A stretch of 35,597 nt of DNA from Methanomicrobiales archaeon (GCA_012521035.1 JAAYND010000017.1:1-35597), one strand, 5' to 3'. Positions 3,675 to 35,319 are shown, numbered from the stretch's first letter. Made by a program: numbers and translations. The notes: generated by a model not told the origin, from the letters alone.

Positions 3675-3679
3675 TCACA

Positions 3680-17062: not shown

Positions 17063-18217
17063 ATGTACGACAGGGATCCGGTTCCCGGGGGACCATCCAC
17101 TCATCAGAGCGGATGGTTCACTGGAGAAATAGCTGTGCCATTACCACAGTGCAGAGATGCAGAGATAGACAGGTGGATCGAACAAAACACCGACTACAAC
17201 CTCGATCAGGAGAACCAGATGCATGTCCCTGCTCTCCGATGTGAGGTACAGGAGCAGATCAACCCTCTACGAGCGCCGGCAGTCACCGGGTACCGGCGGA
17301 TGGTGAACGAAGCCGTTGAATCTGCCTCCGCCCGATCCCGCCGGCCGGGCAACAAAAGAACACTTGCAGCGATCCCCTGCTTCAACGAAGAGGTTGCCAT
17401 CGGTTCAGTCGTCCTGATGGCCCGATCGCACGTCGATGAGGTTCTCGTGATAGATGACGGGTGTACAGACAATACCGTGAAGGTCGCCCGGGACGCCGGA
17501 GCGACCGTGGTCTCTCACGGGACCCGGATAGGAAAAGGAAGGGGGATAAAGAGTGCTCTTGAGTATGCAGTCAGGTACGATTACGACTGCCTGGTCTTTA
17601 TGGATGGGGACGGCCAGCACAACCCCGATGAGATACCTGTCCTGATTGAACCTATCCTCTCCGGTAATGCTGATCTCGTCATCGGGTTTCGAACCCTCGA
17701 TCAGATGCCCAGATATCGGAGATTCGGGAGGATGGTGCTCGATATCGCCTCCAGCAATGGCAGTTCGATCACAGACTCGCAGTGTGGATTCCGGGCACTG
17801 GGCAGGAAGAGCATGGAATCGATGAACAGTACGTTGAAGAGGGATGACTTCTCGATCGAGTCAGAGATGCTCATGGTCGCGCAGAAAAATCATCTCCGTA
17901 TCAATGAAACGCCGATCAACTGCAGGTATGGTGATTTTGATACATCTACGATGAATCCGGTATCCCATGGGATAGAGGTACTTGGATCAATACTCTGGCT
18001 CACGGCAGAGAGAAGACCCCTCTTAAACATCGGCCTGCCCGGGCTTGTTGTGATGCTTGCAGGCGTATACTTTGCACTCCAATTTCTCCAGGAATTTGCC
18101 GAAACCGGCATCCTCCCGATCGGGCGGGGCATGCTCGCATCACTCCTCCTGATCCCGGGGGCTACCATCCTCACAGCAGGTCTGGTGCTTGCTCTCGCCG
18201 CAAGAATGCGGGGGTGA
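17063..18217 (+). CDS. Glycosyltransferase family 2 (dolichol-phosphate mannosyltransferase-like) with C-terminal TM helices
   Basis: GT-A core: RTLAAIPCFNEEVAIGSVVLMARSHVDEVLVIDDGCTDNTVKVARDAGA, VFMDGDGQHNPDEIP, DSQCGFRALGRKSME; C-terminal hydrophobic segments. Confidence 0.9.
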   Translation: MYDRDPVPGGPSTHQSGWFTGEIAVPLPQCRDAEIDRWIEQNTDYNLDQENQMHVPALRCEVQEQINPLRAPAVTGYRRMVNEAVESASARSRRPGNKRTLAAIPCFNEEVAIGSVVLMARSHVDEVLVIDDGCTDNTVKVARDAGATVVSHGTRIGKGRGIKSALEYAVRYDYDCLVFMDGDGQHNPDEIPVLIEPILSGNADLVIGFRTLDQMPRYRRFGRMVLDIASSNGSSITDSQCGFRALGRKSMESMNSTLKRDDFSIESEMLMVAQKNHLRINETPINCRYGDFDTSTMNPVSHGIEVLGSILWLTAERRPLLNIGLPGLVVMLAGVYFALQFLQEFAETGILPIGRGMLASLLLIPGATILTAGLVLALAARMRG

Positions 18218-18220
18218 GGT

Positions 18221-18250
18221 GAATGAAGGAGGGTGCGGAATGATCGGAAT
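18221..18250 (+). repeat. Direct repeat copy 1 (RBS + start codon segment)
   Basis: GAATGAAGGAGGGTGCGGAATGATCGGAAT; 29/30 identical to 18292-18321. Confidence 0.9.
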
Positions 18251-18314
18251 CACCGACTGTCCGTACTGCATGTGGAGTCGGATGATGAGGAGAATGAAGG
18301 AGGATGCGGAATGA
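18240..18314 (+). CDS. Candidate 24-codon leader ORF overlapping the wecB start
   Basis: ATG 18240: MIGITDCPYCMWSRMMRRMKEDAE*, preceded by AAGGAGGG; its TGA (18312-18314) overlaps the wecB ATG (18311-18313) as ATGA. Confidence 0.4.
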   Translation: MIGITDCPYCMWSRMMRRMKEDAE

Positions 18315-18321
18315 TCGGAAT
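18292..18321 (+). repeat. Direct repeat copy 2 (contains the actual wecB start)
   Basis: GAATGAAGGAGGATGCGGAATGATCGGAAT; 71 nt downstream of copy 1. Confidence 0.9.
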
Positions 18322-19390
18322 ACTGCTCGGCACGCGACCCGAGATCATCAAGATGTCTCCAATAATCAGGGAGTGTGAGCGAAGGGATCTTGACTACTTT
18401 ATACTCCACACGGGGCAGCACTACTCCTACGAGATGGATCGGGTCTTCTTTGAAGAACTCGAACTGCCTGACCCCGACTACAACCTCGACGTGGGTTCCG
18501 GAACCCATGCGGGCCAGACGGCGAAGATTATGGCGGGCGTCGAGGATGTTCTGATAAAGGAGTCCCCCGGGATAGTCCTTGTCCAGGGGGACACAAACAC
18601 CGTCATGGCCGGGGCCCTCGCGGCGTCAAAACTTCATATACGGGTGGGCCACGTCGAGGCAGGTCTCCGGAGTTTCAACCGCCGGATGCCGGAGGAGATC
18701 AACCGGGTCGTCACCGATCACATATCGGATTATCTCTTTGCACCGACAGAGAACGCCCGGATGAACCTCCTCGCAGAGGGCATCGATGATAAAAAGATCT
18801 GTGTTACCGGAAATACCGTCGTCGATGCGGTGTACCAGAGCCTCGAGATCGCGAAGAAGCGGGCCGACACCCTCAAAGACCTCGATCTCGAGCCCCGTAA
18901 CTACTTCCTCGTCACCGCCCACCGGCAGGAGAACGTGGACAACCGGGCCCGGCTCAGGGGGATCTTAGAAGGACTTATCGAGGTGCAGAAGGAGTTCCCC
19001 CTGCCGGTCGTCTTCCCCGTCCATCCAAGGACCGAGAAGCGGATTAAAGAGCTGGGAATCGAGGTCAACGGACTGAACCTGACAAAACCCTTCGGGTTCC
19101 TGGAGTTCCTGCAACTTGAATCGCAGGCGAAACTCGTTTTGACCGATTCCGGCGGTGTCCAGGAAGAGACCTGTATACTCGGTGTTCCGTGCGCCACGAT
19201 GCGTTACGATACGGAACGGCCGGAGACGCTGGACGTCGGATCGAACATCCTGGTCGGCACCGATGCAGAGACGATCCTCGAGGGAGTCCGCTCCGCAGCC
19301 GCCCGAAAACAGAGCTGGAAGAACCCGTACGGGGACGGGATCGCCGGAAAAATGATCGTGATGGTCTGTACCGCAGCACGAACCCAATAA
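18311..19390 (+). CDS. wecB: UDP-N-acetylglucosamine 2-epimerase (non-hydrolysing)
   Basis: MIGILLGTRPEIIKMSPIIRECERRDLDYFILHTGQHYSYEMD, VQGDTNTVMAGALAASKLHIRVGHVEAGLRS, LTDSGGVQEETCILGVPCATMRYDTERPET. Track ORF begins at 18233 but ATG 18311 starts the conserved protein. Confidence 0.95.
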   Translation: MIGILLGTRPEIIKMSPIIRECERRDLDYFILHTGQHYSYEMDRVFFEELELPDPDYNLDVGSGTHAGQTAKIMAGVEDVLIKESPGIVLVQGDTNTVMAGALAASKLHIRVGHVEAGLRSFNRRMPEEINRVVTDHISDYLFAPTENARMNLLAEGIDDKKICVTGNTVVDAVYQSLEIAKKRADTLKDLDLEPRNYFLVTAHRQENVDNRARLRGILEGLIEVQKEFPLPVVFPVHPRTEKRIKELGIEVNGLNLTKPFGFLEFLQLESQAKLVLTDSGGVQEETCILGVPCATMRYDTERPETLDVGSNILVGTDAETILEGVRSAAARKQSWKNPYGDGIAGKMIVMVCTAARTQ

Positions 19391-19409: not shown

Positions 19410-20777
19410 ATGAAGATCTGTGTACTGGGATTAGGGCACATAGGATTGCCGACCGCACTGCTGCTTGCCGCTCATGGCTCAAATGTTGTAGGCGTCGATG
19501 TAAAGAAGAGTGTTGTAGACTGTCTGAATCAGGGAAAGCTCCCATTTAAGGAACCTGGTATTGAAGATCTTTATCTCCGGGCAAAGGATCGGTTTACCGC
19601 GAAGAGCAGCCCCGGGAACGCGGATGTCTTCCTGATAGCTGTTCCGACTCCGCTGGATCCGACAACAAAAATCTCCAACCTCTCCTATGTCCGGAGGGCG
19701 GCAGGGATGATCGCAGATCACATCAAAGAGGGAGACCTGGTCATCCTTGAGTCGACCGTCCCTCCCGGAACGAGTGAGCGGGTCGTCATCCCCGTGCTTG
19801 AGAAGAGCGGCGTTGCTATAAGAGATTTCTTGTATGCGCATTGCCCTGAGCGGGCGATCCCGGGACGGACCGTACAGGAGATGATCTACAACAACCGCAT
19901 CATCGGTGGGTATGACCGGGATTCCACCGATCAGGCGATCTCTCTCTACCAGACCTTCGTCCGTGGTGAGATATACACGACCGAAACACGGACGGCTGAG
20001 TTTGTCAAACTGATGGAGAACACCTGCCGTGACGTGAATGTCGCGCTCGCAAACGAGTTTGCAAAACTCGCAGAAGAGTGCGGCGTCAACGTCTGGGAGG
20101 CCATCACCCTTGCAAACAAGCATCCCCGGGTCTCGATCTTAAACCCGGGCCCGGGGGTGGGGGGGCACTGCATCGCCATCGATCCCTGGTTCCTGACCGA
20201 GAACTCGACAAGGTGCAGGATGGTCTCAACGGCACGGGAGGTTAACGACTCCATGCCAAACTACGTGCTATACCTCACCCGCAACCTGCTACACGGCATC
20301 AAAAATCCGGTCATCAGTATCTTTGGCGTCGCCTACAAGGGCAACATCGGCGATACCCGGGAGAGCCCGGCGCTCAAGTTCATCCAGCTCGCCGAGAACG
20401 AGGGTTACGCTATCAGGTGCCATGACCCTTACGTGAAGGATTTCCCGCACCCGCTCATGGATGCCGCTGATGCGGCAGCCGGAAGCGACTGCGTCGTTGT
20501 GCTCGCCGACCACGACTGTTTCCAGAAAACTGATCCTGCGGATCTTCAGGTCCGAACAAAATTTGTCATAGACACCAGGAACATCCTCGACCATGAGCGG
20601 TGGATCAGGCAGGGTTTTGCTGTCCGGGTGCTTGGTGATGGTTCACAGGTGCCACCAATCGCCCTGGAAGAAGATATCCCACTGGCGGGCCTGTATTCGA
20701 CAGATGTGACCCGGCCAATCGCAACCCCACCATCGGTCCCTCTGTTCACCCCGGGTGGGCGGGGGAGGTTCCTTTAA
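19410..20777 (+). CDS. wecC: UDP-N-acetyl-D-mannosamine dehydrogenase
   Basis: UDP-sugar dehydrogenase: MKICVLGLGHIGLPTALLLAAHG, ESTVPPGTSERVV, YAHCPERAIPGRT, NPGPGVGGHCIAIDPWFL, IFGVAYKGNIGDTRESPAL. Confidence 0.93.
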   Translation: MKICVLGLGHIGLPTALLLAAHGSNVVGVDVKKSVVDCLNQGKLPFKEPGIEDLYLRAKDRFTAKSSPGNADVFLIAVPTPLDPTTKISNLSYVRRAAGMIADHIKEGDLVILESTVPPGTSERVVIPVLEKSGVAIRDFLYAHCPERAIPGRTVQEMIYNNRIIGGYDRDSTDQAISLYQTFVRGEIYTTETRTAEFVKLMENTCRDVNVALANEFAKLAEECGVNVWEAITLANKHPRVSILNPGPGVGGHCIAIDPWFLTENSTRCRMVSTAREVNDSMPNYVLYLTRNLLHGIKNPVISIFGVAYKGNIGDTRESPALKFIQLAENEGYAIRCHDPYVKDFPHPLMDAADAAAGSDCVVVLADHDCFQKTDPADLQVRTKFVIDTRNILDHERWIRQGFAVRVLGDGSQVPPIALEEDIPLAGLYSTDVTRPIATPPSVPLFTPGGRGRFL

Positions 20778-20834: not shown

Positions 20835-22043
20835 ATGAGACGGGTATGCATCATATCACAACATTTTCCACCGGAGAAGTCCGGGAACGCATCACGTACC
20901 TACGACACTGCCGTGCACCTCGCAAGATCCGGTATCGATCTGACAGTACTTGCACCGCATCCAACGTTTCCCACAGGGTCGTTCCCGCGCACCTGGAGGC
21001 GAATCCGGGAGGAGGAGGTCGATGGGGTCCGGGTCGTGCGTCTCTGGACCTGGCAACCTGGTTCAGGAGATCCGGGATTTATGAGCAGAATGGCCTACTA
21101 CCTCACCTTTCCGCTCCATGCTCTTCTCTGGCTTTGCTTTCCCTGGAACCGGTTTGACCTGGTCATCACATCAGCCCCCCCCCTCTTCACCGGAATCCCG
21201 GGCTACGTGCTCCAGCGGATATCCGGGGTGAAGTGGATCCTCGATATACGCGATCTCTGGATCGATGCGTCTATAGGCCTTGGATTCCTCAAAGAAGGGA
21301 GCACCTACGAAAAGATGAGCCGGAAATTTGAGGGGATCTGCCTCGCCCGTGCTGATCTTGTGAGCGTCACGACCGAAGAGCTCGGGCGGAAGATCGCGTC
21401 GCGCTACACCGTCACGGCCCCCATAGAGCTGATGCCAAACGGCGTCAATACCGATCTCTTCCGCCCCGCAGAGAGAGGAAAGAAGCAGCAGATCGTATAT
21501 GCCGGCAACGTGGGGCATGCACAGGATCTCGAGAAGGTAGCCCTCGCCGTCAAGTCGATGAACGGCACCTACAACCTGAAGTTTCTCATAGCAGGTGATG
21601 GAGACATACGCAAACACCTCGAGCGGTTGGTGGAGGCGGAGAACCTGACCGAATCGGTTATCTTCACGGGCGCCCTCCCCCGAGAGGAGATCCCGGGGTT
21701 GCTCTCCGAGTCGCTCGTAGGGATGGCGCCGCTGAAGCGACTTGCGACCCTCGAGTACGCTGCTCCCACCAAGGCCTACGAGTACATGGCGTGCGGGATA
21801 CCCTTCGTCGGGTGCGGAGACGGCGAGATTGCCAACCTCGCCAGGGAATCGGGTGCAGGGGTCATAGCCGATAACACCCCGGAGGCGATCGCCGCGACAC
21901 TCTCTTCGCTCCTGGATGATCCGGCGAAGATGGAGGAGATGGGTCGCCGGGGGCGGGAGTATGTCGCGGAGCACTACGACCGGAGAGCGATCACCCTCAA
22001 ACTGAAGCAGCATATCGAGAGGATGACATGGATGGGCGTTTGA
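20835..22043 (+). CDS. Glycosyltransferase family 4 (WbuB-like)
   Basis: 402 aa; CIISQHFPPEKSGNASRTYDTAVHLARSGIDLTVLAPHPTFP..., LMPNGVNTDLFRPAERGKKQQIVYAGNVG, APTKAYEYMACGIPFVGCGDGE. Confidence 0.9.
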   Translation: MRRVCIISQHFPPEKSGNASRTYDTAVHLARSGIDLTVLAPHPTFPTGSFPRTWRRIREEEVDGVRVVRLWTWQPGSGDPGFMSRMAYYLTFPLHALLWLCFPWNRFDLVITSAPPLFTGIPGYVLQRISGVKWILDIRDLWIDASIGLGFLKEGSTYEKMSRKFEGICLARADLVSVTTEELGRKIASRYTVTAPIELMPNGVNTDLFRPAERGKKQQIVYAGNVGHAQDLEKVALAVKSMNGTYNLKFLIAGDGDIRKHLERLVEAENLTESVIFTGALPREEIPGLLSESLVGMAPLKRLATLEYAAPTKAYEYMACGIPFVGCGDGEIANLARESGAGVIADNTPEAIAATLSSLLDDPAKMEEMGRRGREYVAEHYDRRAITLKLKQHIERMTWMGV

Positions 22044-23236
22044 GATCACTGGTCACCCGAATGAGCGGAGCGGTCCGGGAGATGGTGGTCGTCGACGGCG
22101 AGACCGCGTACATCCCCGACCCGGTATTTGGCATCATCAGAAATCGGGTGCACGCCGAGGTTGCAAGGACGCTGCTCCGCACGGGCGGCGATCCGCTCGC
22201 AGAACACCTCCTGAACTACATCGTGAACTGCCAGAATCCAGATGGATCCTGGAACGAGGTCCACGTCAACTACAACCAGCCTTCGGCCCTGGTCACCGCC
22301 TTTATCGGCGATGCACTGCTGGAGGCGGCTGACCGCTACCCCCATGAGGATGCGATCGAGAGAGCCCGGAACTGCGTCATCGCCGCCGAAAGGCGGCCCG
22401 GCTACTTCCTGAAATCGGCACAGTATACCGCTGACCACTTAAACGTCGACGCCTCCTGCGGGGCGTTCCTTGCACGCTACGCAGAGCGATACGATGACCC
22501 GGTTGCCCGTGCGGCGGCCGTTCGGGCTGTGGAGAACGTCGTCGGGCACCAGCGAGACGATGGTGTCTACCCGTATGCCGTGGACAGGGGAACCTACCCC
22601 TACATCTTCAACCTGCCCTGCGCCCACTACCAGGGGGTGACCCTCTACTACCTTGCGAAAGCAAACGACGTGCTCAAAGAGCGCTGGATCAGTGAGAGCC
22701 TCACGGAGGGTGTGCGCTGGCTCGCGGCCATCCTGTGCCCCTGTGGGCAGTTCAACTGGTCGGAGAGCGGTCTATCCTTTGCCTACCATCTCTCGGGAGC
22801 GTACGCATTCGCGCACGCCTCCTTCATCCACGCATCCCGGGGCAACGGCCACTACCTGGAGCATGCCGGTCTATGTTTTTACAGACTTGAGGAGATCGTC
22901 CGGGAAGGGCTTGCGCTCCGGTGGGAGCCGGAATCCTGGAACAGCCTGCCCCCATCGATCGCTGATGCAGCGAGGATGGCATCGATCGGGGGGTTTCCGG
23001 CACGACACCGGGCGTTTCGGTTCGGCTACGCAGTCTACCGGCAGGTCGCCCGGAGGAGGTACAGCGAGACCGCGGAGGCAGGATCGTTTTGGGTTCTCTG
23101 CCGGCTGCTCGGGATCCAGCCATCGACCGTGGAACCCTCAAAGAACTTTTCCGATCTCTTCATGACGTCTGAGGTTCTCGACTGCCTCAGCCAGGCGGAG
23201 ATCTGGGGGAATACGCATGAAACAGGTATTACTTGA
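22028..23236 (+). CDS. Alpha/alpha-toroid-like protein (prenyltransferase/heparinase-like fold predicted), function unknown
   Basis: 402 aa with repeated motifs (NYIVNCQNPDGSWNE, VVGHQRDDGVYPYAVD, ILCPCGQFNWSESGL) typical of alpha/alpha barrels; overlaps both neighbouring ORFs. Confidence 0.6.
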   Translation: MDGRLRSLVTRMSGAVREMVVVDGETAYIPDPVFGIIRNRVHAEVARTLLRTGGDPLAEHLLNYIVNCQNPDGSWNEVHVNYNQPSALVTAFIGDALLEAADRYPHEDAIERARNCVIAAERRPGYFLKSAQYTADHLNVDASCGAFLARYAERYDDPVARAAAVRAVENVVGHQRDDGVYPYAVDRGTYPYIFNLPCAHYQGVTLYYLAKANDVLKERWISESLTEGVRWLAAILCPCGQFNWSESGLSFAYHLSGAYAFAHASFIHASRGNGHYLEHAGLCFYRLEEIVREGLALRWEPESWNSLPPSIADAARMASIGGFPARHRAFRFGYAVYRQVARRRYSETAEAGSFWVLCRLLGIQPSTVEPSKNFSDLFMTSEVLDCLSQAEIWGNTHETGIT

Positions 23237-25358
23237 CCTGCAATCAGGGTCTATTCAGGTGGAGGATGTCCCCGTTCCCACCGTGTCGCGGGGGGTCATC
23301 GTTCAGAACGCCTGCTCCCTCATCAGCGCGGGCACAGAGTCGTCGCTCATCAACCTCGCGGGGCAGTCGCTCGTCGGGAAGGCGAAGGCACGCCCGGATG
23401 ATGTGAGGAGAGTCCTCCAGAAGATCGGCACCGACGGCCCCCTCCCGGCGTACCGGCAGGCGATGGGCCGGCTCTCAAAGCCGGAACCGCTCGGTTACAG
23501 TTGTGCCGGGACGGTGGTGAAGACCGGGACCGATGACTTCGAGGTCGGCGACCGTGTCGCGTGCGGGGGGGCCGGGTACGCGGTGCATGCCGAGTACGTA
23601 TCGGTGCCGAGGAACCTCTGCGTGAAGATTCCTGAGGGCGTCGAGTTCCGGGAGGCAGCGTTTGCGACCGTCGGCTCGATCGCGATGCACGGTCTCCGGA
23701 ACGCTCAGGTCACGGTCGGTGAGAGCGTCGCGGTGATCGGACTCGGGCTGATCGGGCTGCTCACGGTCCAGATCCTCAAAGCCTCGGGGTGCCGGGTCAT
23801 CGGGATCGATATCGACCGGGAGAAACTCTCTCTCGCGTCAGACCTCGGTGCCGACGCCGTCTCAAACTACGATGGCCTCACGGAGCGGATGAAGGCGTTC
23901 TCGTCGTTTGGGGCGGATGCGGTCATCATCACTGCGGCCACCCGGTCGAGCGCCCCCATTGAGGCTGCCGGCCGCCTGGTCAGGGACCAGGGCAGGGTCG
24001 TCGTCGTCGGGGATGTGGGCATGAACGTGCCCCGGAATATCTTCTACGAGAAGGAGGCTCCTATAATCGTCTCCCGGTCCTACGGTCCCGGCCGCTACGA
24101 CCGGAACTATGAGGAACGGGGGATCGACTACCCCATATACGTGCGGTGGACCGAGCGGAGGAACATGGAGGCGTTCCTTGAACTGGTGCGGCAGAAGAAG
24201 ATCGACCTCGACCGCCTGATAACCCACACATTCGCGCTTGAGGATGCACCAGGAGCCTACAACCTCATCAGCACCGGAAAGGAGCGGTATATCGGGGTTC
24301 TCCTGCAGTACAGCCCGAACGGCATGGGAGCTCTCGATACCGTCGCTCATCTTCCGGAGGCGGTGCGGAAGAAGAGGACGGACGGGGTCAGGACGCTCGG
24401 GTGTATCGGCGCCGGGATCCACGCTACAGGCTCGCTCTACCCCCACCTCCCGGCCCTCCCCGTGAACCTCGCCGGGCTCTCGACCGCGACAGGGCTTTCA
24501 GCGCACTCGGTCGCGAAGAAGTATGGGTTTTCCTACTGCACAACGGACTACCGGGAGATCCTCGATGACCCGGATATCGATGCGGTGATGATCGCGACCA
24601 GGAACGACCTCCACGCCCCGATGGCGATCGAGGCGCTACATGCCGGAAAGGACGTATTTGTGGAAAAACCACTTGCGACCGATATCGATGAACTCAGGGA
24701 TATCGTTCAGGCATGGAACGAGTCTGAGGGACGGATCATGGTCGGGTTCAACCGACGCTACTCGCCGCTTGCGCAGAAGATGAAGGAGTTCTTCGGGAAC
24801 CGGAGCACTCCGGCGGTTCTGCACTATCGCGTCAATGCCGGGCAGATCCCCACCGATCACTGGGTGCATGACGATGAGCAGGGGGGCGGCATGCTGATAT
24901 CGGAGTGCTGCCACTTCATCGACTTCATGCAGTTCATCACCGGGGCGATGCCGGTCCAGGTCTACGCCCGGGCGATCGGGCCGGCCGGGAGCCACCAGAA
25001 GTATGACAACTTCCAGGCGACCCTGGCGTTCGATGAGGGGTCGGTCGGCACAATCACCTACACGACGCTCGGCGATCCCTCGTACCCGAAGGAGACCGTC
25101 GAGGTCTTCTGCGATGGCGCCGTGGCGAGGATCACCGACTTCCGCGACCTCGAGCTCCGGCGGGACGGGAAGGCGTCGAGGGAGAGGCGGTGGCTCGCCC
25201 AGGACAAGGGGTTTGCCGGCGAACTCCTGGCGTTCGTGAAGGGCGATCTGCCGGACTTTGCCGGGAGTGTCGCGACGACGCTTGCGACGTTCCGGGCGTG
25301 GGAGTCGATCGAGGTCGGGGAGGTCCGGGAGATCGATGTTGGGGAGGTCGGGGTGTAG
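23217..25358 (+). CDS. Bi-domain oxidoreductase: zinc-type MDR dehydrogenase fused to Gfo/Idh/MocA dehydrogenase
   Basis: 713 aa; N-half MDR (GYSCAGTVVKTGTDDFEVGDRVACGG, VAVIGLGLIGLLTVQILKASGCRVIGIDID); C-half Gfo/Idh/MocA (TLGCIGAGIHATGSLYPHL, DIDAVMIATRNDLHAPMAIEALHAGKDVFVEKPLATD). Confidence 0.9.
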   Translation: MKQVLLDLQSGSIQVEDVPVPTVSRGVIVQNACSLISAGTESSLINLAGQSLVGKAKARPDDVRRVLQKIGTDGPLPAYRQAMGRLSKPEPLGYSCAGTVVKTGTDDFEVGDRVACGGAGYAVHAEYVSVPRNLCVKIPEGVEFREAAFATVGSIAMHGLRNAQVTVGESVAVIGLGLIGLLTVQILKASGCRVIGIDIDREKLSLASDLGADAVSNYDGLTERMKAFSSFGADAVIITAATRSSAPIEAAGRLVRDQGRVVVVGDVGMNVPRNIFYEKEAPIIVSRSYGPGRYDRNYEERGIDYPIYVRWTERRNMEAFLELVRQKKIDLDRLITHTFALEDAPGAYNLISTGKERYIGVLLQYSPNGMGALDTVAHLPEAVRKKRTDGVRTLGCIGAGIHATGSLYPHLPALPVNLAGLSTATGLSAHSVAKKYGFSYCTTDYREILDDPDIDAVMIATRNDLHAPMAIEALHAGKDVFVEKPLATDIDELRDIVQAWNESEGRIMVGFNRRYSPLAQKMKEFFGNRSTPAVLHYRVNAGQIPTDHWVHDDEQGGGMLISECCHFIDFMQFITGAMPVQVYARAIGPAGSHQKYDNFQATLAFDEGSVGTITYTTLGDPSYPKETVEVFCDGAVARITDFRDLELRRDGKASRERRWLAQDKGFAGELLAFVKGDLPDFAGSVATTLATFRAWESIEVGEVREIDVGEVGV

Positions 25359-25461: not shown

Positions 25462-25779
25462 CTAACTCGCCACACCGTCTCGAAAAACATTCCGGATAAA
25501 GGGGTAATGCCGGTGTGCTACAACATCGGCACGCGAGAGCACTTTAACCGAGAGCCGTTCACCTGTCTGCATCAGTAGATCAAAAGCAATTCCAGCGAGG
25601 AATTCACGAATGCGAAAGTCCTCACCAGATGTTATAACAAGAATATCGATATCTGAGTCAGGGCGGTCATCCCCTCGTGCCACAGAGCCAAAGAGTATGA
25701 TCTCTTCTATCGCGCCCCCGTATGCCTCCCGTGCCTTTGCCGCGAACTCATTGACGACCGACTGCCTGACCAGAAGCAT
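25462..25779 (-). CDS. MNT-type minimal nucleotidyltransferase domain protein
   Basis: 105 aa; IEEIILFGSVARGDDRPDSDIDILVIT = GS-x10-D-x-D nucleotidyltransferase motif. Confidence 0.88.
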   Translation of the reverse strand: MLLVRQSVVNEFAAKAREAYGGAIEEIILFGSVARGDDRPDSDIDILVITSGEDFRIREFLAGIAFDLLMQTGERLSVKVLSRADVVAHRHYPFIRNVFRDGVAS

Positions 25780-26013: not shown

Positions 26014-27249
26014 CTACACGGATGACATCCGGGCGTTCTGCACATACGAGAGCTGCTCCGCTATCCTCTCCTGTATCGATCGCGGGTCCTCTTTTGCAAA
26101 CGCCTCCTCCCACTCGTCGTGCCGGCACGAGCAGTCCAGGCCCTCGAACACCGCCAGGTCGAAGTGCCGGTTATACTGCTCGATCGCTTTGATGATCCCG
26201 GCATCACACCTCCCACAGTTCCGGGCCCAGTCGAGGGACTCGACCGAGTAAGTCCAGGGGCTGACATAGACATGAGCACGGTCCCCGAACCGCTCCTGGC
26301 ACCTCTGCAGGAGATCGATGAGGCTCCAGAGCCATGGCGGGCGGTAGAGGTCGTTCTTCCAGAGTTCATGCACAACGGTATGCTTCTCGACCGTCGTCAC
26401 CTCGAGGTCCACGTAGTCGATCCCACGGGAGACACAGTAGGAGATCGTCCGCAGGATATCGTTTGTCGCCTCCGCCTCGGTGAGGAACGGTGGTTTGACG
26501 AGCAGGAGCGGTTTTGTCAGGACACCCATCCCCTGCATCCTGGAGTGGAAGTGATCGAAGTTGTTGGCCGAGAAGCCTTTGTTGATACAGAGGTTCATCA
26601 CCCGGGTATCCGCAGACTCAAAGCCGAACGCCACCTCAAGCTGCCGGCCGTTCAGGGCCTTCTTCATCTTCGCAACATGCTCATCGGGAGAGTAATCTAT
26701 CCTCGACTCGACGACCACCTTCTTGATGTTCTCATACCCGTTGATGTACGAGCAGATCTTCTCGATGGCGGCAACCGGCATCTCACGCTCGTTGAATATG
26801 TTCCCGTCGTTGTAGATCGATATGACCGGATAATCCTCAAGATCGACGGCATCCATGACGTGCTCGAACTGTGCGATGTACTCCTCGGCCGAGATCTCCC
26901 TGCCCCGGGCCGTCGCACAGTAAAAGCCGCACATGGTGCATCCCCCGGTCTTCTCAACCCAGTCACAACCCGTGGAACGCAGGAATACGATCAGTCGCCT
27001 TATAGGTTGATCATCGAGATGCCCGATCCGCTCTTCCCATCCGATGGGGACTGTAAAGTCGATATCTTCCGGTAAAAAACCGTTTTCTCTGCGCAATTTG
27101 CTGGCAAGCCCTCTCACCCTCTCAAGGATATCGTTATCAGTCGGAGGATCGGTAAGGATCCCCGCTCCGCTACTGCTATTGTGTACTGTCCTCTGAAGAA
27201 TACCTAATCCCCCCTTCCCGGAGAACTGACCGTCTGGCGGTGTTAACAC
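26014..27249 (-). CDS. Radical SAM protein, RaSEA/Elp3-like (archaeosine-type family)
   Basis: 411 aa; RLIVFLRSTGCDWVEKTGGCTMCGFYC Fe-S cluster motif, ISIYNDGNIFNEREMP, VVVESRIDYSPDEHVAKMK, LEVAFGFESADTRVMNLCINKGFS. Confidence 0.75.
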   Translation of the reverse strand: MLTPPDGQFSGKGGLGILQRTVHNSSSGAGILTDPPTDNDILERVRGLASKLRRENGFLPEDIDFTVPIGWEERIGHLDDQPIRRLIVFLRSTGCDWVEKTGGCTMCGFYCATARGREISAEEYIAQFEHVMDAVDLEDYPVISIYNDGNIFNEREMPVAAIEKICSYINGYENIKKVVVESRIDYSPDEHVAKMKKALNGRQLEVAFGFESADTRVMNLCINKGFSANNFDHFHSRMQGMGVLTKPLLLVKPPFLTEAEATNDILRTISYCVSRGIDYVDLEVTTVEKHTVVHELWKNDLYRPPWLWSLIDLLQRCQERFGDRAHVYVSPWTYSVESLDWARNCGRCDAGIIKAIEQYNRHFDLAVFEGLDCSCRHDEWEEAFAKEDPRSIQERIAEQLSYVQNARMSSV

Positions 27250-27503: not shown

Positions 27504-27703
27504 TACCTTGTTTGACGGTATACTCTCCCGAAGAAACAGAGGATCCCCGCTCACCGGATCATCCACCTCACCGGGCAGAACAGAGGAGCACGGCACCGCC
27601 CGCGGCCTGGAGAGCGAACTACCCTGGCGAGTGAAGAGATGGCTGGCAGAATGTGCCGGTCGTGGATCCTGAACAAGAGAAAAATGCACCCGGAGAACGT
27701 GAC

Positions 27704-29131
27704 ATGATACGTCTGGGAGAGAGGATCTGCGGCAGAGAGTCCTTCACTGCAAAGGCTCTCGGCATCCTTCCCTCTTACAGTACCTATAGAAAGACCTACG
27801 CCCTCCTCCAGGAATCCCGATGGTGGAGTCGGGAGGAACTATCAGCCTATCAGGCAGAGGCGCTCTCGCGCCTGCTCGACCACGCATATGCAAACGTCCC
27901 CTACTACCGCCGGATCTTCGATGACCGGGAGCTCGTGCCCGAAGACATCCAGACCCCGGCAGACCTCCGCCTCCTCCCGATCCTGACCCGGGAGGACCTG
28001 CAGACCCACCTCCCCGACCTCAAGGCCAGAAACTACCCGGACGCCGCCTTCGAGTATGTCACCACCGGTGGGTCCACCGGGATCCCGGTCGGGTTCTACT
28101 ACGAGCGAGGCGCCTCCCGGGCCCGGGAGTGGGCGTTCATGAAGACCCAGTGGGACTGCGTCGGCTACCGGTTTGGCGATAAATGCGCCGTCCTCCGGGG
28201 CTACATCGTTGGCTCCGCCAGCAATTCGGCATACTGGAAAAAGACCCTCTTCGGCCGGTGGTTGCTCATGTCATCCCATCACATGACCGAGGAGACCCTG
28301 CCGGCCTATGTCGATCAGATCCGGCGGTTTGGACCGAGGTTCATCCAGTCCTACCCCTCTACCGCAGCGCAGCTCGCCCGTTACATGACCGATAACGGGG
28401 TTGAGCCCTTTCCGACGGTGCGGGCGGTCCTCTGTGGCTCTGAGAACCTCTACCCCTGGCAGCGGAGTCTCCTCGAGGAGGCGTTCTGCTGCCGGATCTT
28501 CTCCTGGTACGGCAACTCCGAGCAGACCGTTCTCGCCGGAGAGTGCGAGGAGAGCACACACTACCATATCTTCCCCGAGTACGGGGTGGTTGAGCTGATC
28601 AGCAGAGATGGCCGGCCTGTGGAGGAACCGGGCGAACTCGGTGAGGTCATCGCCACCAACCTCACCAACTACGTCTGCCCCCTCATCCGTTACCGGACGA
28701 TGGATCTTGCAACCGTGGCACCGGGGCCCTGCACCTGCGGCAGGCACTACCCGCTGCTTGAGCGTGTGGAAGGAAGGATCCAGGACTTCATCGTAACCGG
28801 TAAGGGCGAGCTCCTCTCCGGTATCACCATGAACATCGATACTGATGCTTTCGATAACGTTAAACAGTTCCAGTTCTACCAGGAGGAGGTCGGGGAGGTC
28901 GTCCTGAACGTCGTAAAAAAACCGGCGTTCGGGGATCTGGATGCAGAATACCTCTACCAGGAGGTGAGCCGGAGTTGTGGCGACGACGTCACCGTCACCA
29001 TCAGGTACGTTGACAACATACCGCTCACCACCCGTGGCAAGTACCGCTACTTCGTCCAGAACCTGCCGGTACACTTCGGTGAGAGAGAGATGACAAAGAT
29101 TGAGCTCGGGACTTCAGATATGACTGCGTGA
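27704..29131 (+). CDS. PaaK/CapK-family adenylate-forming enzyme (phenylacetate-CoA ligase-like), copy 1
   Basis: Motifs TTGGSTGIPVGFYYERG, LCGSENLYPWQR, SWYGNSEQTVLAGECE, IATNLTNYVCPLIRYRTMDLA. In-frame ATG 27704 preferred to the track start 27653. Confidence 0.85.
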   Translation: MIRLGERICGRESFTAKALGILPSYSTYRKTYALLQESRWWSREELSAYQAEALSRLLDHAYANVPYYRRIFDDRELVPEDIQTPADLRLLPILTREDLQTHLPDLKARNYPDAAFEYVTTGGSTGIPVGFYYERGASRAREWAFMKTQWDCVGYRFGDKCAVLRGYIVGSASNSAYWKKTLFGRWLLMSSHHMTEETLPAYVDQIRRFGPRFIQSYPSTAAQLARYMTDNGVEPFPTVRAVLCGSENLYPWQRSLLEEAFCCRIFSWYGNSEQTVLAGECEESTHYHIFPEYGVVELISRDGRPVEEPGELGEVIATNLTNYVCPLIRYRTMDLATVAPGPCTCGRHYPLLERVEGRIQDFIVTGKGELLSGITMNIDTDAFDNVKQFQFYQEEVGEVVLNVVKKPAFGDLDAEYLYQEVSRSCGDDVTVTIRYVDNIPLTTRGKYRYFVQNLPVHFGEREMTKIELGTSDMTA

Positions 29132-29147
29132 TCCTGGAGATGCATAT

Positions 29148-30554
29148 ATGAAGGCTGACCTGCTGAAATGGATATCGGGGGCAAATCCTCTCACCGTACA
29201 AGCGCTCAGCCTGATACCTTCTTACCGCATATACCGGGAGATGTACACGCTCCTCGGGCAGTCCCAGTGGTGGAGTCACGAAGAACTTCTGGCATACCAG
29301 ACAGAGGCGCTCTCGCGCCTGCTCGACCACGCCTATGCAAACGTCCCCTACTACCGCCGGATCTTCGACGATCGAGGCCTCGTGCCGGGGGATATCGGAA
29401 CCCCGGAAGATCTCCGGCTCCTCCCGTTCCTGACAAAAGAGATCGTCCAGACCCACCTCCCCGATCTCAAAGCAAGAAACTATCCTGAATCGTCGTTTGA
29501 GTACGTCCGTACGTCCGGTTCTACCGGTACGCCGATGGGGTTTTACTACGAACGGGGGGTCTCCCGGGCCCGGGAGTGGGCGTTTATGAAGATCCAGTGG
29601 GACCGCGTCGGCTACCGGTTCGGCGATAAATGTGTCGTCCTCCGGGGACATGTGGTGGACAGCGCATCGAGCGGCATCTACTGGAAGCGCGAGCTCTTCG
29701 GCCGGTGGTTGATCATGTCCTCTCACCAGATGACCGAGGAGACCCTGCCGGCCTATATCGATCAGATCCGGCGGTTTGGACCCCGGTTCATCCACGCCTA
29801 TCCCTCGACGGCCGTGATCCTGGCGCGATTCATGAAGGAGCATGGGATCAAACCCTTCCCGACGGTGCGGGCGGTCCTCTGTGGCTCCGAGAACCTCTAC
29901 CCCTGGCAGCGGAGTCTCCTTGAGGAGGCGTTTCGATGCAGGGTCTTCTCCTGGTACGGCAACTCCGAACAGACCATGCTCGCCGGAGAGTGTGAGGAGA
30001 GCACACACTACCACATCTTCCCTGAATACGGGGTGGTCGAACTGATCGGCAGGGATGGACAGCCTGTGGCGAGACCGGGCGAGCTCGGCGAGGTCGTCGC
30101 AACCAATCTCACCAACTACGTCTGCCCTCTTATTCGCTACCGGACGCGGGATGTGGCGGTCGCCACGACGGAACGGTGCTCCTGTGGGAGACAGTACCCC
30201 CTGCTTGAGAAGGTGGAGGGGAGACTCCAGGAGTTCATCGTGACACGGAGCGGGCACCTGATCTCCGTCACCCCCATCAACTATGAGTCGGGGGCTTTTG
30301 AGAACATCCGGCAGTTTCAGATGTACCAGGAGACGATGGGAGAACTCATTGTAAAGGTTGTCAGAAAGCCGACTTACACCCGGGAAGATTCTCAGCAGCT
30401 CGCCAGGGAGCTCCGGTGGCAGCTCGGCGACGGCGTGGATGTAGAAGTCCGGTTTGTCGACGAGATCCCCCGCACAGAGGGCGGCAAGTTCCGGTACCTC
30501 ATCCAGAAACTACCGATCGATATCGGAGATCTCTCGAGCAGTTATTCGATGTAG
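29148..30554 (+). CDS. PaaK/CapK-family adenylate-forming enzyme, copy 2 (tandem paralogue)
   Basis: RTSGSTGTPMGFYYERG, LCGSENLYPWQRSLLEEAF, SWYGNSEQTMLAGECEESTHYHIFPEYGVVELI; near-identical core to copy 1. Confidence 0.87.
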   Translation: MKADLLKWISGANPLTVQALSLIPSYRIYREMYTLLGQSQWWSHEELLAYQTEALSRLLDHAYANVPYYRRIFDDRGLVPGDIGTPEDLRLLPFLTKEIVQTHLPDLKARNYPESSFEYVRTSGSTGTPMGFYYERGVSRAREWAFMKIQWDRVGYRFGDKCVVLRGHVVDSASSGIYWKRELFGRWLIMSSHQMTEETLPAYIDQIRRFGPRFIHAYPSTAVILARFMKEHGIKPFPTVRAVLCGSENLYPWQRSLLEEAFRCRVFSWYGNSEQTMLAGECEESTHYHIFPEYGVVELIGRDGQPVARPGELGEVVATNLTNYVCPLIRYRTRDVAVATTERCSCGRQYPLLEKVEGRLQEFIVTRSGHLISVTPINYESGAFENIRQFQMYQETMGELIVKVVRKPTYTREDSQQLARELRWQLGDGVDVEVRFVDEIPRTEGGKFRYLIQKLPIDIGDLSSSYSM

Positions 30555-31570
30555 GGGATCATCCTCCTCTTGATCCAGGGCCTGTTGATGATAGTGCTGT
30601 AGGTCCACTCCGCCGCCTTCCCCACGATATCCGCTCTACTCACTTCGATATGGATGGAGAGATCCGGGTTGTACTTTGCCTTGTGCATATTCAGGTTCGG
30701 GTTGTTTGCACCTGTGTTCTCAAACTCCCGGAAACCTTTCTCTTTTGCATCCCTGAGCAGGAGCCACTGGAGGTACTCGTTTGCTGATGTGCCGTCGATC
30801 TTCGGGCCGCCGACCCAGAGAAGATATCGCTTGTACTCCAGGGTTGTCCCGATACCTTTGAGATCCCCATCCCGGTCACAGAGGTGATAGACACGGACAG
30901 AGCCCGGATACGCCCGGAGGATATCCTCAAAGTAGCCCTGTGCGACCATCGGGATACCCATATCCGGGTGGCTGAATCGCTGGCGCACCGTCTCATAAAA
31001 GAGCGCAAGATCGCTCCCCTCCTCCAGGTAGTAGCCGCTCTTCTCAAACTTCCGGAGGTTCGTCCGCAGCTTCGCGTTCAGGTTCTTCCAGAGAGTCTCC
31101 AGGGGAGGAGTGAGATCGATGGTATAGGAGTAGCTGATCCGGGTCTGGTAGCCGTCCCAGATGAAATGGCGGATGTCATGGTAACCGGGGGCGAGCCTGA
31201 TCGAGAGGTAGTTTGGCGAGAGGTCGTCGATCACCTCCCGGAGCCCTTCGATGACCAGCTGCAGTCTCGACTCTTTTTTGCTCTGCTTTGCCGCGGTGTA
31301 ATCCCTGCTCATCACGATACCCTGGTAGGGTATGACCGCCTGCATGGGTGGAGGGGAGAAGGCGAGAGAAAGGCCGTTTCTTTGCCTGTGGAAGAACGGA
31401 CAGACTGCGACGAGTTCCCTGCCCCTGTAGATCCCGCAGGGAAGGAGCCTGTACCCGGTGTGCCGTTCCGTAATCTTCAGAAAATCCCACTTGTGAAAGA
31501 GGAGACCGGACGGGCCGGCATCGATGAACGCATCCCAGATATCCCTATCCGTGACGATCTCTATTGACAA
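30542..31570 (-). CDS. FemAB/GNAT-fold acyltransferase-like protein, copy 1
   Basis: 342 aa; GLLFHKWDFLKITERHTGYRLLPCGIYRGRELVAVCPFF, FSPPPMQAVIPYQG, NEYLQWLLLRDAKEKGFREFENTGANNPNLNMHKAKYNPDL; apparent TTG start at 31570. Confidence 0.78.
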   Translation of the reverse strand: MSIEIVTDRDIWDAFIDAGPSGLLFHKWDFLKITERHTGYRLLPCGIYRGRELVAVCPFFHRQRNGLSLAFSPPPMQAVIPYQGIVMSRDYTAAKQSKKESRLQLVIEGLREVIDDLSPNYLSIRLAPGYHDIRHFIWDGYQTRISYSYTIDLTPPLETLWKNLNAKLRTNLRKFEKSGYYLEEGSDLALFYETVRQRFSHPDMGIPMVAQGYFEDILRAYPGSVRVYHLCDRDGDLKGIGTTLEYKRYLLWVGGPKIDGTSANEYLQWLLLRDAKEKGFREFENTGANNPNLNMHKAKYNPDLSIHIEVSRADIVGKAAEWTYSTIINRPWIKRRMIPYIE

Positions 31571-31626
31571 GCTCTTCTCTCCTCGCTCTACTGGCGAGAT
31601 CCAGCTGCCCCCATTACCCGCAGTAC

Positions 31627-31640
31627 TCTAGATAAATGTA
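31627..31640 (-). promoter_or_regulatory. Putative TATA element for FemAB-like copy 1
   Basis: Minus strand acATTTATCTAgag ~60 nt upstream of the start; analogous AT-rich boxes lie upstream of copies 2 and 3. Confidence 0.35.
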
Positions 31641-32028
31641 GTGGTCACTGCCAGTCACAGGGCAGCAGGCCCACCGCACCGGGTGTCCAGGATACCTCCC
31701 GGCTGCCACATGACAGAAGACCGGGAGTCCGTGTTTCCCGGGAGGGGGGAGCAAGACCGAGCAGGAAGTTTCTTCACTGAGGCATGCCGTCCCGGATCAT
31801 CGATGAAGACCTCATTCTCCTGTGCGCTCCGGATCACCTCAGCCATGCCCCGAACCCCGTCCGGGCGGGGGGTCGGGCTTCGCGGAGAGGGAGGGCACCA
31901 CGTGCAAGATACGTCCCGGGTGGTCTCTCCACCTGCAAGGCAGGGGGCACACCTCCCGGAGGAGGCGGGGTGGTCCTGCAGACCGGAGTCACACCCCGGC
32001 CAGAGTGTCAGGCCGCCGGGGCCCAACC

Positions 32029-32037
32029 ATTATATAC
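32029..32037 (+). promoter_or_regulatory. Putative TATA element for the 63-aa ORF at 32059
   Basis: ccATTATATAcc ~25-28 nt before ATG 32059, spacing compatible with leaderless transcription. Confidence 0.4.
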
Positions 32038-32058
32038 CGTGATGCGTGAGGTGAGGGC

Positions 32059-32250
32059 ATGGTCGCACTCCGCCTCCTTGCTGTGGATGATATCTCGTAT
32101 CAATCATGGGAGTGCAGTCACCTGGAGGCATACGGTGATATCTGGGTGATATTTACAGAACATAACCTCCTTTCGGAGTTCCTGCAACATTTTTACCACG
32201 CATCCGGTCAGGATCTGGTCTCCATGCCGCACTCTGAGAATTTTTTCTAG
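32059..32250 (+). CDS. Candidate 63-aa small ORF (repeat unit A)
   Basis: MVALRLLAVDDISYQSWECSHLEAYGDIWVIFTEHNLLSEFLQHFYHASGQDLVSMPHSENFF; homologous DNA at 34734-34923. Confidence 0.35.
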   Translation: MVALRLLAVDDISYQSWECSHLEAYGDIWVIFTEHNLLSEFLQHFYHASGQDLVSMPHSENFF

Positions 32251-32354
32251 GGCGCTCCCTGTTCCCCGGACGTCTGACCATCTGCGATCCCCTGCACCGG
32301 AGGCGACAGGTTCCGGTATCTCACCCCGCCTCCGGCTGGCGACCTCTCGGCGGA

Positions 32355-33386
32355 TCACTCGATGTACGGGACGATCCGGCGCTTCAGCCAGGATGTACCG
32401 GCGATGGAGCTGTATGTCCATTCTGCCAGAGTCCCGATCATATCTTTCCGGTAGATCTCCATGTAGATCTCAAGATTCGAGCAGAATCGTGATTTGAAGA
32501 AGTTCAGGTCAGGTGTATTCGCCCCGATGTTCTCAAACGTCCGGTAACCTTCGGCTTTTGCACGCTGGACAAGGAGCCACTGGAGATACTCGTTCCCCGC
32601 GTGCCCTCCCTCGATCCGCGGTGTTCCCATCCAGAGCAGGAAACGCCTGTACTCCTGCGTGGCGAGTGCCCCCGCGAGAGCACCATCCCGGTCATAGAGG
32701 TAATAGGCGGCAAGGTGCTCCGGGTATGCCCGGAAGAGATCTTCGAAATAGCTCTGCCTGATCATCGGGATCTGCTTATCCGGGTGGCTAAACCGCCGGG
32801 AGATCGCGGTATACAGTCCTGAGAAGTCGTTGCTCCGCACGAGATCCATGCCCGCCTCCTCAGCTCTCCGGATACCGCTACGGAGTTTGTAGTGGAAGTC
32901 GCTCTGGATCGCTTCAATCGGCTGTGAAAGGTCGATTGTGTAGGTGTAGTGAACCCTCGGGGTGTATCCCCGCCAGGTGAACTGCCGGATGTCGGCAATG
33001 CCGGGCACAAGGGTCAGGGAGAGGTAGTGCGGCGAGATCGCGTCGATCTCGGCGGAGAGGTCGCCCGCGATGAGGCCCATGATCGCCTCCTTCCTGCTCT
33101 GTCTCATCACATCAAACTCGCGTACCGGGACAAAACCCTGGTAGGGTATGACAGCCTGCATGGGCGGCGGCGAGAAGAGCGTCTTTATCCCGTGCGTGCT
33201 CCTGAAGTAGAGCGGAACGAGGCAGACGAGCTCCTCTCCATTATAGATCCCGTACGGGAGGAGCCGGTACCCCGCATGGCGTGCGGTGATCGTGATGTAG
33301 TCCCACTTATGAAAGAGCAGCCCATACGGGCTCCCATCGATGAAGGTATCCCATACCTCCCTGTCATCCACGAGTTTGAGTGTCAT
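32355..33386 (-). CDS. FemAB/GNAT-fold acyltransferase-like protein, copy 2
   Basis: 343 aa; GLLFHKWDYITITARHAGYRLLPYGIYNGEELVCLVPLYF, FSPPPMQAVIPYQGF, GNEYLQWLLVQRAKAEGYRTFENIGANTPDLNFFKSRF. Confidence 0.8.
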   Translation of the reverse strand: MTLKLVDDREVWDTFIDGSPYGLLFHKWDYITITARHAGYRLLPYGIYNGEELVCLVPLYFRSTHGIKTLFSPPPMQAVIPYQGFVPVREFDVMRQSRKEAIMGLIAGDLSAEIDAISPHYLSLTLVPGIADIRQFTWRGYTPRVHYTYTIDLSQPIEAIQSDFHYKLRSGIRRAEEAGMDLVRSNDFSGLYTAISRRFSHPDKQIPMIRQSYFEDLFRAYPEHLAAYYLYDRDGALAGALATQEYRRFLLWMGTPRIEGGHAGNEYLQWLLVQRAKAEGYRTFENIGANTPDLNFFKSRFCSNLEIYMEIYRKDMIGTLAEWTYSSIAGTSWLKRRIVPYIE

Positions 33387-33445
33387 GGAACCCTGCTTCC
33401 GGCCGAGCGGTCCTTTCGGAATGCGCTCGCTACAGGATAGCGGCA

Positions 33446-33457
33446 GATATATTTATC
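33446..33457 (-). promoter_or_regulatory. Putative TATA element for FemAB-like copy 2
   Basis: Minus strand GATAAATATATC ~60 nt upstream of ATG 33386. Confidence 0.4.
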
Positions 33458-33592
33458 TTCTCGGGTGCCTCCAGGGAGCATCGTCCTGTATGATTTTTGG
33501 CAGAGGAGAAAGTAGCCCGGACCTCCGGAATCTCTCCCGCCATCCGACAACCATGCTCCGAACCTGGAGTCTGCCTCTCCAGTACGGGCGGT

Positions 33593-34621
33593 CTAAACCC
33601 TTCCCGTCGCCATCATCAGGCGTTTGACAAAGGCGAGGTATGCCCATTCGGAGACCGCCCCGAAGGTATCCTTCTTCTCTATCTCGAAGTACATCATGAG
33701 ATCCGGGTTAAACCGGGACTTGAAGAAGGCCAGGTCGGGGTTGTTTGCACCCATGTTCTCGAACATCTGGTAACCTTCGGTTTTTGCCCTCTGGATCAGG
33801 AGCCACTGGAGATACTCGTTCCCGGCATGGGCGGTCTCGACCTTCGGCGTCCCCATCCAGAGCAGAAACCGCCTGTACTCCTGGGCCGCCACCGCGCCCA
33901 CGAGTTCGTCTTCCGTATTGTAGAGATAGTATGCTGCGATCCTGTCCGGGTAGGTATGCACGAGATCTTCGAGGTAATTCCTATCGATCGGCGGGATATC
34001 GAGCGCGGGGTCACGGTAGCGGTCGGCAAGGATCCGGTGGAGTGTGGAGATATCACCCGTCCTCTCCAGCCGGAGGCCGGCATTCTCCTCTTTTTTCAGT
34101 TTATTTCGGAGCTTATAGTGGAGGTTGTTCCAGAGGTCTTCGATCGAGCGCGTAAGGTCGATGGTGTAGGTGTACCGGATCCGTGCATCGCACCGATCCC
34201 AGAGGTAGTGGCGCACGTCGTTGAACTCCGGGACGAAAGATACTGAGAGGTAGTTCGGCGAGAGACCCCGGATCTCCTCCTGGATCTCCCCGGCGATCAT
34301 GCCGAGGAGGGATTCCTTCTTGCTCTGTTTCAGCCTCGTAAACCCCCTGTTCATCACGCACCCGAGGAAAGGTATCACCGTGAGGGGGGGAGGAGAGAAG
34401 ACGGCGTTAACGCCGTACATCCGCCGGAAGAAGAGCGGGAACAGACAGGCCAGCTCGTTTCCCTTATAGACTCCATACGGGAGGAACCGGCTCCCGGTAT
34501 ACCGTGCTGTCAGGTGCAGGTAGTCCCACCGGTGAAAGAGGAGCCCTGATGGGCTTTCGTCGATGAATGTGTCCCAGGTATCTCTATCCTCTATGATGCT
34601 CACGGTCATCCTTTTCGTCAC
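33593..34621 (-). CDS. FemAB/GNAT-fold acyltransferase-like protein, copy 3
   Basis: 342 aa; GLLFHRWDYLHLTARYTGSRFLPYGVYKGNELACLFPLFF, FSPPPLTVIPFLGC, GNEYLQWLLIQRAKTEGYQMFENMGANNPDLAFFKSRFNPDL. Confidence 0.8.
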   Translation of the reverse strand: MTKRMTVSIIEDRDTWDTFIDESPSGLLFHRWDYLHLTARYTGSRFLPYGVYKGNELACLFPLFFRRMYGVNAVFSPPPLTVIPFLGCVMNRGFTRLKQSKKESLLGMIAGEIQEEIRGLSPNYLSVSFVPEFNDVRHYLWDRCDARIRYTYTIDLTRSIEDLWNNLHYKLRNKLKKEENAGLRLERTGDISTLHRILADRYRDPALDIPPIDRNYLEDLVHTYPDRIAAYYLYNTEDELVGAVAAQEYRRFLLWMGTPKVETAHAGNEYLQWLLIQRAKTEGYQMFENMGANNPDLAFFKSRFNPDLMMYFEIEKKDTFGAVSEWAYLAFVKRLMMATGRV

Positions 34622-34686: not shown

Positions 34687-34733
34687 TTCTTCAAGCCTGC
34701 CGATTTGCGTGACAGGGCACAAAGCGAGCAGGT

Positions 34734-34923
34734 ATGGTCATCTTCCACCTCCCTGCCATGGATGGCGTTTCGTATCAATCGTGGGCGGACAGCTCTGTAG
34801 TTGCGTGGGTGACGTCCGGGTGGTCATCACCGGGAACAACCTCTTTCCTGAACTCCTGAACCACGTCAACCGCGCATTCAGCCGGGATCTGGTCGCCCTC
34901 CCATGCTCCGGGAATTTCTCCTG
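34734..34923 (+). pseudogene. Repeat unit B: frameshifted homologue of the 63-aa ORF at 32059
   Basis: ATGGTC...GATGG..TTTCGTATCAATCGTGGG aligns with unit A (39/52 nt in the first segment; 77/117 nt in the last segment); a 1-nt deficit in the middle breaks the frame. Confidence 0.5.
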
Positions 34924-34946
34924 ACCGGGTGTGCGGTCCCGGTCAG
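34921..34946. repeat. Perfect 9-bp inverted repeat (CTGACCGGG-tgtgcggt-CCCGGTCAG)
   Basis: Stem 34921-34929 / 34938-34946 with 8-nt loop, at the end of repeat unit B. Confidence 0.65.
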
Positions 34947-35319
34947 CTGATTGATCGAGGAGGATACTCTCAAGGATACAGGGGCCCGCGCGGGCCGATG
35001 CGATCATACAACTGCAGCGGGGAACGGAGATGGCCTGCCCCCCCCGCCTCCCGGGCGGATCGATGCGGGCGCCACCGGGGTCCCCTTCCGCTCATGGAGA
35101 TGGGAGCCCGACCTCTCGCTATCCTGCCTGAAGTGTTACGCCGGCCTCGCCCGGCGACTCTCTCGCCCGGAGCCGGTGGCGAGGAGGCGGGCGCCGGGAC
35201 AGAAGACCGGGAACTGAGCGGGAGTGCACCTTTTTGGCGCACCCCCATCCCGGCCGGCTATTTTCCGGGAGAACATCGGGTTCCCTGGAGCCGGATCGTA
35301 AAAAACCTCATTACAATTA

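Follow-up and report, generated by a model that had tools for sequence, protein, structure and literature searches.

A Methanoculleus surface-polysaccharide locus with CapK-like ligases and tandem FemAB paralogues as a candidate for two separate glycan decorations

Background

To our knowledge, the enzymes that add amino acids to archaeal surface glycans are largely unassigned. A close published precedent is the VimE/VimA linking-sugar pathway of Porphyromonas gingivalis and Tannerella forsythia, in which VimA determines whether an aminouronic sugar receives Ser or Gly once VimE has putatively removed an acetyl group; that VimA itself makes the transfer is the suggestion of the authors (PMC7468200). 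Here we compare such systems with a polysaccharide locus of Methanoculleus, found on one complete contig (C27, 35597 bp, hereafter called the window) of a metagenome-assembled genome that is 87% complete. In the window two CapK-like ligase genes on the plus strand, CapK1 and CapK2, face three tandem FemAB paralogues on the minus strand, and all five lie downstream of the genes GT2-wecB-wecC-GT4-toroid-ADH/GFO (Table 1).

The likeness to the VimE/VimA pathway lies in a GNAT-type transferase working with polysaccharide genes, in related archaeal FemABs that adjoin VimE-like deacetylases and in the aminouronic sugar that is expected. The locus differs in having three FemABs instead of one, with no VimE-like gene adjoining them, and the Wbp 3-amino pathway is not seen in it. 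With the murein peptide transferases FemX, FemA and FemB the paralogues share the tandem-GNAT fold, FemX being the best structural match, but the identity is about 16%, the archaeal host has no murein and the setting is a polysaccharide operon.

Results and discussion

The initial annotation of the window described the five genes as a candidate undescribed system in which the ligases supply an acyl donor to three dispersed FemABs. The two CapK-like genes and the three paralogues are indeed present, as judged by profile scores, structure matches and alignments, and Pfam and NCBIfam place wecB, wecC, GT4, GT2 and the ADH/GFO fusion upstream as had been described. The assignment to a surface-glycan locus of a murein-free archaeon is also supported. 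The paralogues are however tandem, not dispersed, and "undescribed" was too strong a word, as VimA/VimE of Porphyromonas and Tannerella are a published precedent for a GNAT-type protein attaching an amino acid to an aminouronic sugar (PMC7468200). The reading towards which we lean, at somewhat better than even confidence, is that of a Methanoculleus surface-polysaccharide locus responsible for two different decorations on one aminouronic-acid glycan, FemAB and CapK acting separately. The sequences show the gene content, the folds, the orthology, the order of assembly and the gene conversion, and from these the donors, acceptors and products are inferred.

Recurrence and assembly of the module

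We searched 150 genomes of the order with one profile for FemAB and one for CapK. It should be noted that many of these genomes are drafts, that several of the contigs end inside CapK genes, and that the neighbourhood counts given below (CapK within 4 kb, VimE-like gene within 5 kb) are counts among the matches listed. The block recurs in 27 of the 150 genomes, all belonging to one family. Among the matches listed a CapK lies no more than 4 kb from 58 FemABs, which are spread over 27 genomes, so that the arrangement is not due to chance and the co-occurrence of the two families on which the initial annotation depended is confirmed. The usual order is GT2-wecB-wecC-GT4-toroid-ADH/GFO-(RaSEA, opposite strand)-CapK1-CapK2-(FemAB-A, -B, -C)-small open reading frame (ORF)-CapK3-CapA-porB-porA-porG, the number of FemAB copies per module elsewhere being one to three; the genus shares this layout with two neighbouring genera. 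The window deviates from this order: its FemABs stand as B-A-C, CapK3 is gone and CapA is present only in pieces.

Outside the family of the module the operon wecB-wecC-GT4-toroid-ADH/GFO-CapK occurs without any FemAB in three genomes, G036 (L115), G037 (L128) and G121 (L170), which belong to the families f6, f2 and f5, respectively. As three other families thus carry the CapK operon without FemAB, CapK is a member of the older operon and the FemABs are later arrivals. In L115 CapA follows directly after CapK, and in other orders of the phylum (L168 and L169) GT4-toroid-ADH/GFO is found without CapK. We propose that the base operon of GT2, wecB, wecC, GT4, toroid, ADH/GFO, CapK and CapA would build and modify a chain that probably contains N-acetylmannosaminuronate (ManNAcA), and that in an ancestor within the family of the module (f1) CapK was duplicated and VimA-like FemABs were inserted on the opposite strand.

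These FemAB-free operons count against the single chain of the initial annotation, in which the three FemABs would place, on different positions of the glycan, an acyl group that CapK had activated as acyl-adenylate or acyl-CoA. CapK and FemAB do occur together in all module genomes among the matches listed, they also share the unrelated clusters L089, L088, L109 and L114, and FemAB has a GNAT domain, all of which would suit such a chain. Many FemABs are nevertheless found without CapK, and in G072 and G022 three CapK copies are retained alongside one FemAB, which we count against a fixed pairing of ligase and transferase. With the fold neighbours of FemAB being mostly aminoacyl-tRNA-dependent enzymes (see below), we consider the acyl chain quite unlikely.

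CapK and FemAB might also be separate island genes of surface-glycan variability that share no glycan and have accumulated at the same place. Copy loss, broken FemAB remnants (in G058, G112, G104, G116, G052 and G063) and the loss of CapK3 and CapA in the window are what such a history could leave behind, but the gene order is conserved across the genera of the family and the toroid gene of the operon is present in 28 of 28 genomes carrying this FemAB clade, and we regard this possibility as very unlikely. In G004 and G010, two nearly complete genomes of the Methanoculleus genus, the toroid gene, FemAB and a close CapK are all absent.

The CapK ligases

CapK1 and CapK2 are 70% identical over 453 amino acids, match PaaK-type structures (4r1l, E 2.5e-33) and have the motifs GSTG, YGxSE, YRTxD and GK intact. 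PaaK and coenzyme F390 synthetase share the ANL superfamily and these motifs, but a tree of 25 proteins separates the polysaccharide CapKs (17 rows, those of the window included) from the PaaK/F390 types (8 rows) with 100/100 support. The two proteins of the window score 96.2 and 108 bits against a PaaK equivalog cut-off of 646.3. A role as catabolic PaaK or as F390 synthetase is ruled out by the tree and this low score, in agreement with the initial annotation.

The nearest outside group, with 89/80 support, consists of CapKs from vps-like loci (Pseudoalteromonas and Vibrio plasmids; L136 and L137), which also hold the wecB-wecC pair. These loci differ from ours by a CapK identity of about 30%, by having no FemAB and by other glycosyltransferases and acyltransferases. 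The Vibrio polysaccharide (VPS) of V. cholerae contains N-acetylguluronate, amide-linked to glycine (PMC3901696). Because the closest outside CapKs come from vps-like wecB-wecC loci and VPS has such a uronate-glycine amide, we infer by analogy that CapK may take part in making a uronate amide or ester. The substrate that the CapKs adenylate would then be a carboxylate; the most plausible one is the C6 carboxyl group of a hexosaminuronate, the others being that of a small acid or of an amino acid. The product would be a glycan-bound amide or ester, activation for amide formation being more likely. In the literature on CapK with uronate amides we found no paper assigning a function; the Bordetella b-Cool paper treats uronamides and makes no link to CapK.

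Gene conversion of the CapK copies

Within one genome the mean DNA identity of CapK1 and CapK3 is 90-98% over codons ~40-320 and 54-76% outside them. At fourfold sites of this core the identity is 93.4% for the two copies of the same genome; CapK1 orthologues of different genomes reach 71.0%, and in the C-terminus the fourfold-site identity of CapK1 and CapK3 is 65.4%. The core tree places CapK1 beside the CapK3 of its own genome in 10 of the 12 genomes, while the C-terminal tree resolves one group for each of CapK1, CapK2 and CapK3, with the minimum of two label changes. The loci concerned are 27653-30554 of the window and L094-L105. The window retains only the CapK1-CapK2 pair and its conversion signal is weaker. 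The FemAB paralogues, checked for gene conversion in the same way, lack any homogenised stretch comparable to the CapK core.

By these sequence comparisons the adenylation core of the CapKs undergoes concerted evolution, with C-termini that are copy-specific; gene conversion within each genome keeps the cores alike. A simple recent duplication is ruled out as the cause of the likeness, since the copies fall into three orthologous groups by their C-termini while their cores pair by genome. An assembly artefact is unlikely as the sole cause, because conversion is seen in the single-contig G034, G040 and G096 and the values are not uniformly 100%. As the core is kept alike and the C-terminal domains are copy-specific, the pattern points to one acid common to the copies and to acceptors that differ.

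The FemAB paralogues

All three FemABs score above the PF13480 cut-off, with 45-51% identity to the first paralogue. The structure model of FemAB-A (pLDDT, a per-residue confidence score, 88.4) has the tandem GNAT fold of the FemX type (FemX: E 1e-15, TM 0.69), as the initial annotation had expected. In PDB it most resembles FemX, FemA and two aminoacyl-tRNA-dependent synthases, Sbb17 and Sba18; MprF-type domains follow closely, and all of these rank ahead of most acetyl-CoA GNATs. Without the model, a single-sequence search of PDB returned one irrelevant match and a profile search weak FemX matches only. Going by the modelled fold, the FemABs are most likely N-aminoacyltransferases that depend on aminoacyl-tRNA and act, independently of CapK, on the glycan that CapK also decorates; amino acids taken from aminoacyl-tRNA would be attached to free amines of a glycan intermediate, possibly sequentially. 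The literature on Methanoculleus FemAB and on the threonine of Methanococcus glycans held no paper assigning a function.

In a family tree the FemABs of the module group with the VimE-linked FemABs L089, L132 and L117. A VimE-like gene lies within 5 kb of 51 of the 68 other FemABs of the order, where ~0.4% would be expected by position, and near 0 of 76 module or solo FemABs, all among the matches listed. For the module FemABs we therefore use the VimE/VimA parallel as an argument that they may work alike, and not as one of membership.

This last count also weighs against the reading that we favour: with no VimE-like gene near the module FemABs, and none in the genome of the window (87% complete), the acceptor amine is unexplained. 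Several other points tell in the same direction. The family tree was made quickly and has some long branches, and the use of aminoacyl-tRNA is read solely from the rank of the fold neighbours. The best NCBIfam match of all three paralogues is the XrtA/PEP-CTERM FemAB family (TIGR03019), yet at 42.5-57.1 bits they fall far below its cut-off of 260.35; PF02388 matches one FemAB only, at 17.1 bits and below the curated cut-off of 24. On the side of the ligases, the analogy between CapK and VPS is drawn from vps-like loci and not from the vps cluster of V. cholerae itself.

Three tandem paralogues with a FemX-like modelled fold might alternatively form a relay in the manner of FemX, FemA and FemB, adding successive amino acids to give a short peptide on the glycan. 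FemAB-C, which is kept in 16 of the 16 genomes examined as compared to 11 for A and 8 for B, would then add the first residue. The unexplained acceptor amine applies to the relay as well, and as G068 has B and C but no A the loss is not strictly nested; we consider the relay unlikely. Distinctly unlikely, in our judgement, is a combined version in which a three-enzyme relay that has dropped VimE puts tRNA-derived amino acids or a short peptide on a ManNAcA-type glycan and core-converted CapK isoenzymes deliver one acid to different acceptors.

A second type of archaeal FemAB cluster (L109, L112-L114 and L129-L131) contains PIG-L, DUF354, a VimE-like deacetylase and one to three FemABs, and sometimes adds ATP-grasp, a flippase and an archaeosortase. 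No exosortase or archaeosortase was found among the locus genes scanned with Pfam and NCBIfam, which make up part of the window ORFs; one is present in another FemAB cluster.

Other features of the locus

Table 1. Coordinates of the polysaccharide locus in the 35597 bp window
Feature	Position	Strand	Evidence or remark
GT2 glycosyltransferase, first gene of the operon	17063..18217	+	PF00535; position conserved
wecB, UDP-GlcNAc 2-epimerase	18233..19390	+	above cut-off of TIGR00236
wecC-type nucleotide-sugar dehydrogenase, ManNAc dehydrogenase-like	19410..20777	+	above TIGR03026 cut-off; next-best are UDP-ManNAc dehydrogenase models
GT4 glycosyltransferase	20835..22043	+	PF00534
Toroid-like protein	22028..23236	+	alignment, neighbourhoods, weak toroid model
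ADH/GFO bi-domain oxidoreductase (fusion)	23217..25358	+	PF00107 + PF01408
RaSEA radical SAM (archaeosine, tRNA modification)	26014..27249	-	above TIGR01210 cut-off
CapK1, adenylate-forming ligase	27653..29131	+	alternative start 27704
CapK2, adenylate-forming ligase	29148..30554	+	profile, structure match, tree
FemAB-B paralogue	30542..31570	-	TTG start as listed; PF13480; orthologue group B
Small conserved 63-aa ORF, intact copy	32059..32250	+	elsewhere before CapK3
FemAB-A paralogue	32355..33386	-	PF13480; FemX-like structure model; group A
FemAB-C paralogue	33593..34621	-	PF13480; group C
Small ORF, second copy, frameshifted	about 34733..34924	+	sequence relic
CapA relic (PGA_cap family), in pieces	about 34936..35214	+	just before porB
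porB start	35320		

The start of CapK1 chosen in the initial annotation is an in-frame ATG, codon 18 of the longer gene given in Table 1. The toroid-like protein, RaSEA, the small conserved ORF, the CapA relic and the porB start are additions to that annotation. RaSEA sits between the ADH/GFO gene and CapK1 genus-wide, and as outgroups have no RaSEA at that position it is probably not part of the pathway.

In 16 relatives an ORF of 61-63 codons, preceded by a TATA-like stretch and a GAGGT site, is located between FemAB-C and CapK3; the intact copy of the window begins MVALRLLA and ends SENFF. At the first, second and third codon positions the differences are 0.19, 0.14 and 0.43, respectively; the single length change is in frame, and over 17 genomes the substitution pattern is protein-like. 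No Pfam family matches the ORF. A functional RNA in this conserved intergenic stretch was rejected, as Rfam gave chance matches only and the codon pattern indicates a protein. Judged by its codons, it is a conserved and previously unannotated gene, and a new detail of the locus.

The toroid-like family adjoins GT4, and usually also ADH/GFO, across several archaeal families, and no relatives on plasmids were found. The model of the protein is weak (pLDDT 64.8); its resemblance to sugar epimerase, lyase and hydrolase toroids is a hint only, by which the protein is possibly a uronate epimerase, lyase or hydrolase.

Elsewhere in the window, 25462-25779 (minus strand) encodes a small nucleotidyltransferase-domain protein (PF01909), possibly half of an MNT-type pair, and at 2730-4978 (minus strand) an amino acid kinase family protein adjoins an arginine deiminase family protein, resembling an arginine deiminase pathway pair.

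Conclusions

The locus offers a compact, genus-wide candidate set of genes for glycan decoration, and ties archaeal FemABs to the bacterial VimA/VimE precedent. Further, the converted CapK core beside stable C-termini constitutes a natural experiment on which part of the ligase sets the acid and which the acceptor.

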